NCBI GenBank assembly: GCA_947501445.1
Contig: CANMVS010000001.1
Span: forward strand, 186,001 to 250,000
Reading direction: 5' to 3'
DNA length: 64,000 nt
Origin: an uncultured Rhizobiaceae group bacterium
GTDB taxonomy: Bacteria > Pseudomonadota > Alphaproteobacteria > Rhizobiales > Rhizobiaceae
In this document: piece after piece, positions 30,960 to 37,883 of the stretch
Layout of the letters: the number at the start of each line of letters is the position of its first letter
Numbering within the stretch: position 1 is the stretch's first letter
Notes under the pieces: generated by a model
Databases searched by the model: none
What the model saw: only the letters and a program-made list of their open reading frames with translations
What the model was told of the DNA's origin: nothing
Program-made: the position numbers and the translations under genes

Positions 30960-31008
30960 TCGTAAAAATTGCAATTCCGCAATCTACACTGACCCCAAGA
31001 GCACCAGA

Positions 31009-31106
31009 GCAATTCTGGTTTTGACGGAATCGGCAAAACCAGGATGCATCAACAAAATCAGAGGCCGACACCGTTGTCCCGTTTCTGACAAAACGTGAAA
31101 CGGTCT
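31009..31106 (+). repeat. Dispersed 98-bp intergenic repeat, copy B
   Basis: Same length and order as copy A. The left stem reads TTCTGGTTTT/AAAACCAG: relative to copies A and C both arms changed together (CAGG/CCTG to CTGG/CCAG), so pairing is kept. It ends 8 bp before the repressor ATG and must be in its leader or promoter. Confidence 0.85.
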
Positions 31107-31114
31107 GATACAAG

Positions 31115-31831
31115 ATGAGCATAATCAAGACGCTTCGAGAAGCCCAAGGCTTGACCCAGGTACAGCTTGCAGACCGTTTGTCCACGTCTCAGCCGCAGAT
31201 CAGACGCCTGGAAGCGGGCGAACGCCGGTTGACAAAGGAATGGGCAGAAAAGCTTGCCCCTCACCTTGGTACCACGGCCGCAGAACTGATGTTTGGCGAT
31301 CCAATACCCGCTGCAACAACGGCCCCTTCCGTTCCCCCGGCTGCAATCAGGGTTTCATCACCGGTTACATCCGACAACAGTGGCTATTTGACAGCTCCCG
31401 CGAACGCAAGGCTTGGTGACACACTGGTTGATTTGCAAAGCAAAATCCCGGTATATGGTCAGGCAGTCGGCGGCGTGGATGGTGAATTTGTAATGAATGG
31501 TGATCGCCTCGACGATGTGTTTTCCCCACCCAGCCTCTCTTCAGTTGTGGGTGCCTATGCCGTATTCGTTTCCGGTGAATCCATGGAACCGCGCTATTTT
31601 GACGGTGAGATCGTATATGTAAACCCGGCAAAACGCGTCAGGCGGGGTGACTTTGTTGTGGCGCAGATACAGTCAGACGAACATGCGCCGCGCCTTGCCT
31701 ATGTCAAACGATTTGTGCGCTGGAATTCATCCGAACTCGTTTTGGCACAATATAATCCGATCAGAGAACTGTGTTTTGAAGCCGATCAGGTTGTCTCGGT
31801 ACACCTCGCGGTGATGGGCGGAGCGGTGTAG
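31115..31831 (+). CDS. XRE/S24 family transcriptional repressor (CI/C2-like)
   Basis: 238-residue phage-type repressor. The N-terminal HTH_XRE is LREAQGLTQVQLADRLSTSQPQIRRLEAGER; an Ala/Pro-rich linker spans about residues 60-105. The C-terminal S24 peptidase-like domain has the catalytic Ser in VSGESMEPRYFDGEIVYV and Lys in AYVKRFVRW, so RecA-stimulated self-cleavage is possible. Beside leftward small genes and paired dyads it resembles an immunity region. No integrase or structural phage genes are in the window. Confidence 0.88.
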   Translation: MSIIKTLREAQGLTQVQLADRLSTSQPQIRRLEAGERRLTKEWAEKLAPHLGTTAAELMFGDPIPAATTAPSVPPAAIRVSSPVTSDNSGYLTAPANARLGDTLVDLQSKIPVYGQAVGGVDGEFVMNGDRLDDVFSPPSLSSVVGAYAVFVSGESMEPRYFDGEIVYVNPAKRVRRGDFVVAQIQSDEHAPRLAYVKRFVRWNSSELVLAQYNPIRELCFEADQVVSVHLAVMGGAV

Positions 31832-31842
31832 AATTTAATCCA

Positions 31843-33438
31843 TCAGCTGTACACGCGTGACACCAGCGAAAAGCGTTGTTCGATACCGATGGCAGATAAA
31901 AAATCCTGGTCATGGCTGACCACCAGAATTGCACCATCGTAAGAGGCCAATCCGGCTTCGACCTCAGCAAGCGCTTCCAGATCGAGATGATTGGTCGGTT
32001 CGTCCAGCATCAGCAATTGGGCCGGTTCCCGCGCCATGAGACAACAGGCCAGGCCAGCGCGCAACAATTCACCGCCACTGAGTGATCCAACGATGCGGTT
32101 TGCATCGTTGGCCCGAAAAAGGAAACGCGCCAGTTGCCCTCGGCCGTCACGATCACCGACTTGCGGATTAATGCGTTGGCAGTTTTCCAAAATGGTTTGT
32201 TGGCGATCCAGAAATGCAACATTCTGATCGAGAAATGCAAACGGCACATTGATATCAACGTCACCGCATTTGGGAGCCAGCGTTCCCGCCAGGGTCTTGA
32301 ATAAAGTAGACTTGCCGCATCCATTGGGTCCACATATCGCCAACCGCTGTGGGCCAACCAGTTGCAGACATAAATCTGAGAACAACGGCTCTGCGTCCGC
32401 ATAGCCACCGCTCAGATTATGCGTTGCAAGAACAACCCGATTGCCTGGTAACCCAACTGAATCCAGCTCCAACCGCGGTGGCACCGATTGTATCGCCTGC
32501 TCCCGTGCCTTTCTCAGATTATCTTCAGCAAGTTTCATACGTCGAACGTTCTCACGATTAGTCGTACTCAGCGCATTTTCGGATTGCTGTTTTTGCGCAT
32601 TGAGGATCAGTTTGCTTTGGCTACCATCCCACCTGGCGTGCCGACCCCTGGCATTGGTTTTGTCTTTTCGCTGACGTGCGATCTGCTGTTTTGACTTTGC
32701 GCGATGCATTTGGTCCTGCGCATGCGACAGGTCTTGCCTGTGCCGGACCTGTTCCGCCAACTTTGCCTGCGCGAAGAAATCCCAATTGCCCCCATAGGTT
32801 TTTACGCCGCCTGGCGTGAGTTCCAAAATGCAGGTTGCGTCTCTCAGCAGCGCCCTGTCGTGCGATACGACAACGGCACCACCTTTGTAGTCGGCCAGGG
32901 TCCTGGCGATCAGAGTTCTAGCGTCCTGATCGAGGTTATTGGTTGGTTCGTCCATCAAAACCACATCAGGGTGATCAAAAAATACGGATGCCAACGATAC
33001 ACGCATGCATTGACCACCACTAAGCTGGCTGATCAGCTGACCTGGCGACATTGTCCCAAGACCGAATTTGCGCAGTGAAGAGCGAATGCGCTCATCCAGC
33101 GACCAGTCAATCTCCCAGGCTGTATCTGAACCGGTGTGACCTGAAAGCACAAGCATCAGGTCGCGATAGGCGCACGAGACACCAAATACATCTGCGATCG
33201 TTTCCGTCTGTGGGGCATCGATACATTGCCCCATGAACCGCATCACGGAACGGCTGCGCACAATGCCAGTGCCCGGTTGCCTGATGCCGGCTATAACTTC
33301 AAGCAATGTCGATTTGCCGATGCCATTGGCACCAACAATAGCAGTCAGACCATGCTGAATTTCAATATTTACGTTTTCAAAGAGGCGCCGGCCATCAGGC
33401 GTGGCATAGGACACATTGTGAGCTGTCAGTAATGTCAT
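31843..33438 (-). CDS. ABC-F family ATPase (ribosome-associated, possible resistance protein)
   Basis: 531-residue soluble protein with two ABC domains and no membrane segment. First domain: GANGIGKST (36-44), LSGGQCMRVSLA. Second: GPNGCGKST, LSGGELLRAGLA, LLMLDEPTNHLDLEAL. The linker between them is long, basic and helical (roughly residues 220-320), as in ABC-F proteins acting at the ribosomal E site. Its leader has an overlapping leader ORF and a long hairpin, and an APH(6)-type kinase gene is divergent, so antibiotic resistance is likely but unproven. Its own ATG lacks a clear ribosome-binding site. Confidence 0.88.
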   Translation of the reverse strand: MTLLTAHNVSYATPDGRRLFENVNIEIQHGLTAIVGANGIGKSTLLEVIAGIRQPGTGIVRSRSVMRFMGQCIDAPQTETIADVFGVSCAYRDLMLVLSGHTGSDTAWEIDWSLDERIRSSLRKFGLGTMSPGQLISQLSGGQCMRVSLASVFFDHPDVVLMDEPTNNLDQDARTLIARTLADYKGGAVVVSHDRALLRDATCILELTPGGVKTYGGNWDFFAQAKLAEQVRHRQDLSHAQDQMHRAKSKQQIARQRKDKTNARGRHARWDGSQSKLILNAQKQQSENALSTTNRENVRRMKLAEDNLRKAREQAIQSVPPRLELDSVGLPGNRVVLATHNLSGGYADAEPLFSDLCLQLVGPQRLAICGPNGCGKSTLFKTLAGTLAPKCGDVDINVPFAFLDQNVAFLDRQQTILENCQRINPQVGDRDGRGQLARFLFRANDANRIVGSLSGGELLRAGLACCLMAREPAQLLMLDEPTNHLDLEALAEVEAGLASYDGAILVVSHDQDFLSAIGIEQRFSLVSRVYS

Positions 33439-33496
33439 GAAGTACCGATCGTGAGAACATCAGGCTGGTGGGATCACACATGTTCTCATTGTTCAT
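33395..33496 (-). CDS. Candidate leader peptide ORF overlapping the ABC-F start
   Basis: 33-codon frame beginning MNNENMCDPTSL. Its ATG (33496-33494) has AGGAG nine bases upstream, better than the ABC-F gene itself. It is read in another frame and ends 44 bases inside the ABC-F gene. The start codon lies in the left arm of the leader hairpin. Size and place fit a regulatory leader peptide; expression is inferred. Confidence 0.5.
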   Translation of the reverse strand: MNNENMCDPTSLMFSRSVLHDITDSSQCVLCHA

Positions 33497-33502
33497 CGGT
33501 AC
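33442..33502 (-). promoter_or_regulatory. Long leader hairpin of the ABC-F gene (attenuator candidate)
   Basis: Outer arms GTACCGA (33442-33448) and TCGGTAC (33496-33502) and inner arms TGAGAACAT (33452-33460) and ATGTTCTCA (33480-33488) pair perfectly, 16 bp in total, around a 19-base loop. On the minus-strand transcript the stem ends 3 bases before the ABC-F ATG. It could equally be a DNA operator in the divergent promoter. Confidence 0.6.
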
Positions 33503-33523
33503 ACACTCCTGTTCCTGTCGCGG

Positions 33524-34423
33524 ATGGATATAGTTACACAATTGACCGTGTTCAAGGACTTTCCTTATTCGCAGACAAGGCCCCTTTCCTCTCCGGTTGT
33601 TGAACACTATTTGTCAGCAATGATCGAACCATACCTGAAACGCTGGTCCCTGCATGCAGATGGCAAGGTGATTTTCACCGACAGCAGTCAATTGTTACCG
33701 GTCATTCGGGAAGATGGGACAGCGGCCATGCTGAAAATGGCCATCGCCTCGGATGAGAAAATCGGCGCGGGCCTGATGGCCTGGTGGGCAGGCGATGGCG
33801 CCGCCCGCGTCCTTGAATCTCATGAAAATGTGCAGCTGTTGGAAATGGCACAAATGCAACCGAACCTTGCCACCATGGCACGGTCCGGCGAGGACGATGA
33901 GGCCAGTCGGATAATCTGCAGGACGACAGCATTGCTCCATGCAAAAAACGCACCACAGAATTTGGGGCTGGTTCCCCTGGCCAAGCGCTTCGATGCCCTG
34001 TTTGAAGCTGCCTGCATACATGGAGGGTTCTTTTTGCAACCAGCAACAATTGCCCGATACCTTTTGCAGACCCGGCGGGAAACAGTCGTTCTCCATGGTG
34101 ACATTCATCATGGCAACATCTTGTGGTTTGGCGAGCGCGGGTGGCTGGCCATTGACCCAAAGGGACTCATTGGTGAGCGCGGTTTTGACTACGCGAACCT
34201 GTTTTGCAATCCCGATATGGAAATCGCAACTGCGCCCGGCAGATTGGAAACGCAGGCGTCCCTCGTGGCAAAAACGGCACATTTGGATCGTCAGAGATTG
34301 CTGCAGTGGATTATCGCCTATTGTGGCCTGTCCGCCGCATGGACGCTGGAGCAACGTCCTTCGATGCAGGAACCATTCAAAACCGCAGGGGTTGCCGCAG
34401 CCGCTCTTGCCCTGCTGGACTGA
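33524..34423 (+). CDS. APH(6)/hydroxyurea phosphotransferase family kinase
   Basis: 299-residue protein-kinase-fold enzyme of the streptomycin 6-kinase type (PF04655). The catalytic loop is VVLHGDIHHGNIL, the metal-binding DPKG is in LAIDPKGLIGERGFDYANLFCNP, and the LPVIREDGTAAMLKMAIAS region supplies the ATP-binding lysine. Characterised relatives phosphorylate streptomycin or hydroxyurea; chromosomal copies may have other substrates. Divergent from the ABC-F gene, sharing an 85-bp promoter region. Convergent with the desaturase; the 164 bp between (34424-34587) are empty. Confidence 0.87.
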   Translation: MDIVTQLTVFKDFPYSQTRPLSSPVVEHYLSAMIEPYLKRWSLHADGKVIFTDSSQLLPVIREDGTAAMLKMAIASDEKIGAGLMAWWAGDGAARVLESHENVQLLEMAQMQPNLATMARSGEDDEASRIICRTTALLHAKNAPQNLGLVPLAKRFDALFEAACIHGGFFLQPATIARYLLQTRRETVVLHGDIHHGNILWFGERGWLAIDPKGLIGERGFDYANLFCNPDMEIATAPGRLETQASLVAKTAHLDRQRLLQWIIAYCGLSAAWTLEQRPSMQEPFKTAGVAAAALALLD

Positions 34424-34587
34424 CCCCATCGCGCACCGCACAACGTCTGCCAACGAGGTTCTGATCAATATTGCAACGCTGACAATGATCTGGCCGCAAC
34501 CGCCGAAGACCAGTCATGCCCGCACAGTCAAGCACTGCTTCGGCTCTCAATGGGAATAGTTTGGTCATTGTCGCCAGATCGGACATC

Positions 34588-35532
34588 TCAAGTCTTGAGC
34601 GAGCGGACATATTTACCATGAAACCGGCCGTAGCCTTGTTCCGTTTCCTGCAAATGCTGTTTGGACAACGCATGCAGCTGTGGCAATTGATGAAAGGGCA
34701 CGGCGGGAAATGCATGATGCTCTGCGTGAAACGGCATATTCCAAGCAAGCCGGCGAACGATGGCATTGGTGTAGGTTGTTCGACTATTGGCAAACATGTT
34801 TGAAACCAGCGCGCAACGGCCATGTTCAGCAAGCAGATAGAAGCGTAAAAATGGCTGGCCGATGATAGCAGGCAAGACCCAGACATAGAGCAAATCAGGA
34901 TATTGAAACCAGATAGCCATCAGCAGGACCAGCCCGTACAGGCACAACATCATTCTCGCTTCCCGCCTTATCCTGGCCTGTGCAGATGACGGCACGAAGG
35001 CGCCCGGCTTTAAACCGGATGCGTTGCGAACCAATGTTTTCAGATGGCTGTACCAGACCGGTAAACCAGAGATATGAATTGCATATTGCAATGGTGTTTC
35101 AGGCTTGGGTTGAATGAGTTCCGGGTCGTTTTGCGGGTCTTGTGTGTGACGATGATGGGCGAAGTGGAAATAGCGGAACCAGTCAGGTGGAAGCAGGATC
35201 AAAAATCCGCAAACTCGCGCCACGGCGTCATTGAGCCATTGGCTCTCAAATGCCGTGCGATGAATTGATTCATGCAAGGTGGTGAAAAGAAAAACAATCA
35301 GCACGCCCTGTAGCGGCATCAGGATCGGCCAAAAGATCGGTTTTGCTGCAATCAGACCGCCAATCACCAGTATTGCACCCCAGTGCGCAGCGAGTTGCCC
35401 AAAACCTTTGAAATTCGAGCGTCGCGTTAATGCCTGTTTTTGCCTGCGCGACAGACCGGCCACGAATTGCCGATGGTCCTGATCCTGCACCGTCATTTCA
35501 GCATCCTCGCCAGCAGCTTGCTCCCCTGTCAT
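34588..35532 (-). CDS. Membrane fatty acid desaturase family protein
   Basis: 314-residue integral-membrane di-iron enzyme. The three histidine boxes are HESIH, HFAHHRH and HAEHH, with helices between them. Such enzymes desaturate or hydroxylate acyl chains or carotenoids; relatives include alkane/sterol-type hydroxylases. The ATG at 35532 is used; a second at 35496 is possible. It stands alone. The 329 bp to the TPP element (35533-35861) are AT-rich without a gene, including a TTGACA at 35829 that may be the thiC promoter -35. Confidence 0.85.
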   Translation of the reverse strand: MTGEQAAGEDAEMTVQDQDHRQFVAGLSRRQKQALTRRSNFKGFGQLAAHWGAILVIGGLIAAKPIFWPILMPLQGVLIVFLFTTLHESIHRTAFESQWLNDAVARVCGFLILLPPDWFRYFHFAHHRHTQDPQNDPELIQPKPETPLQYAIHISGLPVWYSHLKTLVRNASGLKPGAFVPSSAQARIRREARMMLCLYGLVLLMAIWFQYPDLLYVWVLPAIIGQPFLRFYLLAEHGRCALVSNMFANSRTTYTNAIVRRLAWNMPFHAEHHAFPAVPFHQLPQLHALSKQHLQETEQGYGRFHGKYVRSLKT

Positions 35533-35861
35533 TGATCACAAATTTAACGAAGACACACAATCACAAACCAGCCAAATGCATCTCGAACCAATGGGTTCTT
35601 GATCGTCCGGAAGCGGATTTGACGGCACACAATACAAGAATAATAACATATTTTCCTCAGACGCAACGCACCTGCAATATAGTTAATATATTAATTTAAA
35701 AAATCCTGTTTATATATTGTTATATATCAATAATATGGAATGTAATATTTCATGTTTCTAAGTCCGAAATCTGAACTTTGGCCCGGGTGTTTTTGACATT
35801 GCCAAAGGCGCATTGGCTGAAATCCCGCTTGACAGAATCGAATCCCTATACTCTAAAAGCC

Positions 35862-35968
35862 CCACTGCCAGGGGAGCTCCGACAAGGAGCTGAGAGGCTG
35901 ATCGGTGAATGTTCACCAGCGCAGCGACCCTTTGAACCTGATCCAGTTAACGCTGGCGTAGGGATGGT
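35862..35968 (+). ncRNA. TPP riboswitch (THI element) controlling thiC operon
   Basis: Conserved THI-box parts in order: GCCAGGGGAGC, CTGAGAGG (35890-35897), then ACCCTTTGAACCTGATC and AGTTAACGCTGGCGTAGGGA near the 3' end. The expression platform probably hides the ribosome-binding site: CTCTCC (36022-36027) is complementary to GGAGAG (36065-36070) just before the thiC ATG. Thiamine pyrophosphate binding should switch off translation of the operon. Confidence 0.95.
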
Positions 35969-36041
35969 TAATCGCCAAAATGGTCTGCTGCCTGAACAGG
36001 TTTCTGCACGACTGTGGCGAACTCTCCTTTTGCACACGTGA

Positions 36042-37883
<1,842 letters not shown>

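Follow-up and report, generated by a model that had tools for sequence, protein, structure and literature searches.

A conserved overlapping leader frame and hairpin before an alphaproteobacterial ABC-F gene, a candidate translational attenuator

The window analysed here is a stretch of 64,000 nucleotides of DNA from an uncultured Rhizobiaceae group bacterium. On its minus strand it carries a gene for an ABC-F ATPase of 531 aa (31843..33438, ATG at 33438), the gene presumably regulated by the element described below. The protein contains two ABC_tran stretches (Pfam), and its sequence relatives of solved structure in PDB are PoxtA, EttA, Uup and others; two ABC domains, an interdomain linker and ABC-F relatives, as in ARE ABC-F proteins, were thus found with Pfam, NCBIfam and PDB. 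The best curated model was NF000355 (ribosomal protection-like ABC-F) with 329.7 bits, below its cut-off of 380, and scores with the Vga, Msr, OptrA, Sal, CplR and Lsa models were far under their cut-offs, such that no curated resistance-family cut-off was passed. Divergent from the ABC-F gene lies an APH(6)/hydroxyurea-type kinase (33524-34423, plus strand, 257 bits with Pfam), which scores under the NCBI APH(6) cut-offs. The first 39 residues of the kinase from its listed ATG precede the Pfam match, and its true start may be near 33620; the promoter-like site of the ABC-F gene given below would then be intergenic. A preliminary description of this DNA had proposed a small resistance locus on account of the kinase. 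A tblastn search with the kinase against the collected loci, many of which hold only about 450 nt of upstream DNA, returned only copies of the window's own locus, and the idea of a conserved resistance locus containing an APH gene gained no support. A protein with HTH and Peptidase_S24 domains, a LexA/CI-like architecture, is encoded at 31115-31831 (plus strand), convergent with the ABC-F gene, and a fatty acid desaturase (PF00487) at 34588-35532 (minus strand).

Upstream of the ABC-F gene and on the same strand, a Shine-Dalgarno sequence AGGAG (33506..33510; anti-SD energy -7.8 kcal/mol) precedes a leader ORF of 33 codons plus TGA (33395..33496). The leader ATG (33496-33494) lies at -58 to the ABC-F ATG and in frame +1, and the leader overlaps the ABC-F gene by 44 nt. 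The final T of a CCT proline codon and the GA of an aspartate codon, both within the ABC-F motif PDG, together supply its stop TGA (33395..33397, minus strand). The inner stem of a two-part hairpin is a 9-bp inverted repeat with a loop of 19 nt, its left arm being TGAGAACAT (33480..33488, minus strand) and its right arm ATGTTCTCA (33452..33460, minus strand). The outer stem is a perfect 8-bp inverted repeat on the same strand, of which the left arm GTACCGAT (33495..33502) overlaps the leader ATG and the right arm ATCGGTAC (33442..33449) ends 3 nt before the ABC-F ATG. Most of this layout had been given in the preliminary description, and the AGGAG, the 33-codon frame, its 44-base run into ABC-F, the overlap of leader start codon and left hairpin arm and the 3 bases between stem and ABC-F ATG were all confirmed. 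Of the 7 + 9 bp hairpin reported there, the inner 9 bp and the 19-base loop stand, while the outer arm is 8 bp rather than 7. The ABC-F start, which had been said to have no clear ribosome-binding site, has a weak one and not a wholly absent one, with an anti-SD energy of -3.0 kcal/mol versus -7.8 for the leader. Mean anti-SD energies across loci were -6.45 kcal/mol for leaders, -4.01 for ABC-F starts and -2.31 for shuffled sequences; a better ABC-F Shine-Dalgarno sequence in leaderless loci was looked for and not found (p 0.92).

A promoter-like TTGAAC-17-TATATC (33527..33555, hexamers at 33555-33550 and 33532-33527, minus strand) has 8 of 12 consensus matches under a lax in-house scoring. 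With the same lax scoring, best scores averaged 7.32 in the 98 nonredundant leader-bearing loci described below versus 6.50 in shuffles, and a stricter consensus promoter scanner listed none in 33300-33750. The transcript would start near 33520, about 25 nt before the leader ATG.

Loci for comparison were taken from genome samples of relatives, family, order and class, the window's genus being sampled with 8 genomes, its own included. The best match to the window ABC-F in these samples had 46% identity, and no near orthologue was found in any of them. Counting the window's genome in each case, matches were present in 115 of 394 family genomes (E <= 1e-90; a count of genes, not of leaders), in 86 of 397 order genomes (E <= 1e-85) and in 20 of 385 class genomes (E <= 1e-70). 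From a genome contig search 80 loci were kept, with a best identity of 41% among the matches listed; 76 of these (L038-L113, 27-32% identity, mostly other phyla) were left out of the analysis. Upstream DNA was collected for 200 loci, a part of the ABC-F matches listed, and removal of L187, which has no usable start, and of one duplicate left 198. A similarity filter (<80% over 75 nt) reduced the 198 to 128 nonredundant loci, 98 of them with a long leader.

An ORF open across the ABC-F start occurs in the +1 frame in 167 of the 198 loci, in the +2 frame in 48 and in frame in 21; when a Shine-Dalgarno sequence is required, the counts become 129, 3 and 0. Under a rule that takes the ATG nearest the Shine-Dalgarno sequence, 163 of 198 loci have an overlapping +1 leader, the remainder being 12 short leaders, 6 AUG-stop leaders, 14 startless loci and 3 others, where the long-leader class requires a stop before +80 and the short class includes some loci without a Shine-Dalgarno sequence. 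The non-conservation of the leader frame that would have spoken against the preliminary description was therefore not seen. Among the 163, the start is at -58 in 99, at -55 in 30, at -52 in 21, at -61 in 11 and at -70 in 2, and the stop falls at +44 or +47 in 133. A narrow layout (+1 frame, Shine-Dalgarno sequence, start at -61 to -49, stop before +80) was found at 128 of 198 ABC-F loci versus 0 of 158 control ORFs, these being other ORFs, 250 aa or longer, in the window and the fetched loci. A conserved upstream ORF with its own ribosome-binding site, a trait of uORF attenuators, is thus present. On a plasmid of Rhizobium sp. CC-CFT758 such a leader, of 34 codons and at -58, is unannotated.

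Pairing was analyzed across the same loci. In a scan of all arm positions over 61 nonredundant loci with the leader at -58, the best helix joined -47..-41 with -20..-14, and none of 300 permutations of the right halves among these sequences attained the observed helix maximum. When inner arms were swapped among the 98 loci, real partners averaged -9.83 kcal/mol versus -6.46 for swapped ones (p 1.5e-14). Two controls of the swap gave no signal (p 0.62 with the left arm taken further upstream and p 0.42 with the right arm taken at +40), and one, with the right arm from +3..+28, was not clean (p 0.043). The outer arm alone was not significant across loci (p 0.09), nor was the swap in loci without a leader (p 0.62, n = 11). 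Six or more bases of -25..-1 were paired with -72..-35 in the minimum free energy fold of each of the 98 loci, with a mean of 16.2 versus 5.6 in shuffles. A hairpin that sequesters the initiation region of the target and pairs with the uORF, again as in uORF attenuators, is borne out by the covariation and arm-swap results. Judged by this covariation of the inner arms, the stem changes in relatives are compensatory, a point that the preliminary description had put forward as a check, and the hairpin is conserved as pairing rather than sequence. As far as sequence comparison can tell, leader and hairpin are kept by evolution across many genera of the Rhizobium group.

In the window itself the inner stem is shifted one codon from the consensus register. 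It could be argued that the element has decayed there and that its ABC-F gene is expressed in another way, given that the protein is on a long branch (0.88) and that the hairpin of the window, when only its own sequence is folded, does not exceed what chance gives (z -1.51; a fold at least as good in 19 of 200 shuffles). Yet the window retains the start position, the Shine-Dalgarno sequence, the frame, the stop formed with CCT and a two-part stem of 17 bp without mismatch, and its own arms, at -22.9 kcal/mol versus a mean of -12.2 for swapped partners, beat most of those partners (rank fraction 0.041). We regard decay as highly improbable.

Other identities for the inverted repeats were considered and rejected. 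A DNA operator fits neither the spacing between the arms (19 and 45 nt) nor their covariation, which is that of RNA arms. There is no terminator-like site in 33300-33750 of the window that would make the hairpin an intrinsic terminator; a T-rich run was found at -12..+12 in 1 of 98 loci and anywhere in -60..+60 in 7 of 98, and an intrinsic terminator between uORF and gene, as in the vmlR/cplR type, was not found. The search for known Rfam elements in 31000-36500 gave only a TPP riboswitch at gathering threshold. That riboswitch (RF00059, 35860-35982, plus strand, 67.8 bits) lies upstream of an ORF at 36075-37883, which we take to be thiC.

The effect of a ribosome on the leader was modelled through the energy needed to open the ABC-F start. 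Placing a ribosome on leader codon 1 lowers the mean cost from 17.4 to 7.8 kcal/mol. This drop of 9.6 kcal/mol compares with 1.6 when a block of the same size sits upstream and with 0.36 for shuffled sequences. For the window the cost falls from 18.5 to 8.0 kcal/mol at codon 1 and is 6.6-8.1 for stalls at codons 1-6, in which positions a leader ribosome is predicted to expose the ABC-F start, in agreement with the opening of the hairpin first proposed for this locus. From codon 7 the gain in the window becomes smaller (11.4 kcal/mol at codon 7, 12.8 at codon 8), and a ribosome that had moved past codon 8 would, by its geometry, itself lie over the ABC-F start; an early stall is therefore what would open the gene. 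The leader start is itself the costlier to open (19.1 versus 17.4 kcal/mol, p 1.7e-4), and for this reason the leader must load during transcription or by means of its stronger Shine-Dalgarno sequence.

We consider it probable, at roughly 60%, that the element is a cis-acting translational attenuator in which a leader ribosome stalled early opens the hairpin and makes the ABC-F start accessible. The leader ORF, with its good ribosome-binding site, would lie on a transcript beginning about 25 nt ahead of the leader ATG. Codons 1-7 of the leader form the left hairpin arm, and the right arm lies in the ABC-F initiation region. In the normal state leader ribosomes would cross the ABC-F start out of frame and stop at the TGA inside the gene; behind them the hairpin would re-form and the weak ABC-F start would seldom be used. 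Ribosomes held on leader codons 1 to about 6, for instance by drugs that trap initiation, would cover the left arm, and the right arm thus freed would allow a second ribosome to start on ABC-F 58 nt downstream, a step for which geometry and energies were computed and induction is supposed. Leader and hairpin thus probably keep ABC-F expression low as long as no factor, perhaps an antibiotic, makes ribosomes stop at the leader start. Since only the position of the stalled ribosome would matter, the leader peptide would be free to drift.

The peptide was compared at codon level. Over 62 disjoint pairs, leader codon changes at positions 1, 2 and 3 number 155, 173 and 163; no third-position excess was found in them, synonymous shares resemble those of other frames, and codons 2-7, 8-12 and 13-19 behave alike in this respect. 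Conserved leader residues had been put forward as a check in the preliminary description, which also cited induction of erm genes by stalling on short leader ORFs; the relatives show no such conservation at codon level, and erm-like stalling on a specific peptide gained no support. The erm leaders are macrolide-sensing and stand before a ribosome-protection gene, and in both msrD and erm leaders stalling is peptide-dependent and the leader is not known to overlap its target out of frame. Stalling of the ErmCL type, in which one drug class would act through a conserved motif of the leader, could draw on enriched positions in the present leaders, namely Ala at codon 7 in 40 of 61 and Asp or Asn at codon 2 in 49 of 61; against it stand the equal changes over codon positions and the existence of leaders that consist of a start and a stop. 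We therefore found no conserved arrest peptide of that type, and judge such stalling very unlikely here. Stem constraint may explain frequent residues such as Ala at codon 7. The leader also has leucine-, proline- and alanine-rich positions, because of which some constraint on peptide or RNA may exist.

Leaders reduced to ATG followed by TGA or TAA, each with a Shine-Dalgarno sequence, are found at L018, L198, L213, L219, L227 and L232. On a FastTree of 116 ABC-F proteins, in which long branches including that of the window ABC-F (0.88) are placed unsurely, the AUG-stop state needs 3 changes, at least 2 of them forced by starred branches, and thus arose more than once. The lack of a third-position excess together with these six loci suggests that the leader peptide hardly matters.

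The AUG-stop leaders also bear on translational coupling, in which leader ribosomes would open the hairpin, slip back from their stop and reinitiate at the ABC-F ATG, making the leader a steady activator and not a drug switch. That the leader traverses the hairpin, that its stop point is maintained and that the ABC-F start has a weak Shine-Dalgarno sequence would all suit such coupling. However, leaders of the AUG-stop and short types terminate before reaching the ABC-F start and do not traverse the hairpin, and 44-47 nt is, from general knowledge, far for backward reinitiation; we consider coupling an unlikely account of the element. The idea that ribosomes shift at the TGA by +1 from the leader frame into that of ABC-F was considered and set aside, as the conserved N-terminal strand of ABC-F would then become non-conserved leader peptide.

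Maintenance of the leader stop is visible in the codons of the ABC-F gene. Among leader-bearing loci that possess the motif, the PDG proline is encoded by CCT in 136 of 141 (80 of 82 once redundancy is removed), but CCT stands there in only 5 of 22 nonredundant loci with an AUG-stop, short or no leader (Fisher 2.9e-13 for 80/82 versus 5/22, a count slightly favoured because the long class is defined by a stop before +80). As background, CCT is used at 150 of 564 other proline codons; the PDG-like motif is absent in 28 of 198 loci, which are hence uncounted in the test. Bases that would give an earlier leader stop occur in 1 of 65 leader-bearing cases, in 7 of 25 others and in 58 of 523 after PDG. 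From these codon counts we conclude that the leader stop is under selection via the synonymous CCT codon of the ABC-F gene. This would be a case of a regulatory uORF constraining synonymous codons of the gene that it overlaps, and CCT at PDG offers an operational mark for locating such leaders in genomes.

In the available parts of the literature, most documented cases of ABC-F genes under uORF attenuation come from Gram-positive bacteria, and drugs that trap ribosomes at start codons are reported in the accessible sections to induce the uORF-controlled vmlR, cplR and toiL (PMC9226507, PMC10201436, PMC12121999). The uORF of VmlR (MIN) and that of CplR (MR[I/M]) likewise precede the genes of Gram-positive ARE ABC-F proteins; according to the sections available, drugs holding ribosomes at the uORF start induce them and various short uORF sequences work (PMC9226507, PMC10201436). 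These uORFs encode tripeptides within leaders of 219 and 212 nt with intrinsic terminators and antiterminators (same sections), whereas the element here would span about 80 nt, with one hairpin, no terminator-like site and an overlapping uORF of 30-41 codons. Another related system is the toiL uORF before E. coli topAI, which likewise forms base pairs with the initiation region of the gene that follows; there, in the text available, tetracycline or retapamulin traps ribosomes at the uORF start and so relieves translational repression (PMC12121999). However, its target is a toxin-antitoxin operon, and several drugs act at different leader codons, partly by sequence (PMC12121999, available text), while the leader in the window overlaps its target out of frame, has an ABC-F target and is without codon-level peptide constraint. 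The msrD leader, as partly accessible in PMC10314930, is likewise a macrolide-sensing leader before a ribosome-protection gene.

A rhizobial parallel, the uORF of DUF1127 (duf11271) in Sinorhizobium meliloti, brings in transcription. There too start-held ribosomes relieve repression, and RNA sequence counts rather than peptide sequence; unlike the present element, it acts by transcription attenuation, proposed to be Rho-dependent, on another gene, and the sections available report no target overlap (PMC12218461). Rho-dependent attenuation before ABC-F would mean that leader translation exposes C-rich RNA to Rho and that start-held ribosomes mask it. Such a mechanism would agree with C exceeding G in 92 of 98 nonredundant leaders and, at all 98 loci, in the opening 60 nt of ABC-F, and with this peptide-independent, start-proximal sensing in a related bacterium (PMC12218461, as far as available). 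It would not, however, require a covarying hairpin beside the ABC-F ATG, nor the fixed spacing of 52-61 nt, the kept overlap and the stop inside ABC-F, and the window leader is barely C-rich, with 15 C versus 12 G. As the sole mechanism Rho seems to us improbable; because the leaders are C-rich, it may take part in addition to the translational attenuator. A paper on the small proteome of S. meliloti mentions 5'-UTR ORFs, and none was seen for an ABC-F gene in its available portion (PMC10117765). Within the CC-licensed PMC literature, no description of the element was found. If the attenuator reading is true, the element would be a compact and widespread Gram-negative form of ABC-F uORF attenuation. 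It would also allow one to ask cleanly if an arrest peptide is needed for attenuation at all, with the AUG-stop leaders as natural variants.

Read jointly, and tentatively, with somewhat less than an even chance of being right as a whole, the observations would describe a peptide-blind drug sensor in which the position where a ribosome parks is the only information. A synonymous codon of the target, maintained by selection, would preserve the uORF, whose out-of-frame overlap would silence that gene; at least twice the uORF would have been reduced to an AUG-stop, and on one branch the whole device would have given way to a divergent TetR gene and a palindromic operator.

For that branch, the uORF device seems from the sequences to have been exchanged for a TetR-type repressor in leaderless relatives. 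A palindrome of the form CAGCAC/AAGCAC...GTGC stands before the ABC-F gene in 8 of 14 loci without a leader start (L019, L190, L194, L196, L201, L204, L206 and L225) versus 0 of 184 others. When nearby ORFs in palindrome loci were scanned with Pfam, 7 of 8 were TetR-type (L300, L303-L307, L019), and plasmid records of Sinorhizobium meliloti, S. medicae and Azospirillum oryzae have a divergent TetR gene annotated at the same place. The label 'TetR' is carried by nine loci in the tree, L301 among them, which has neither the palindrome motif nor a TetR gene.
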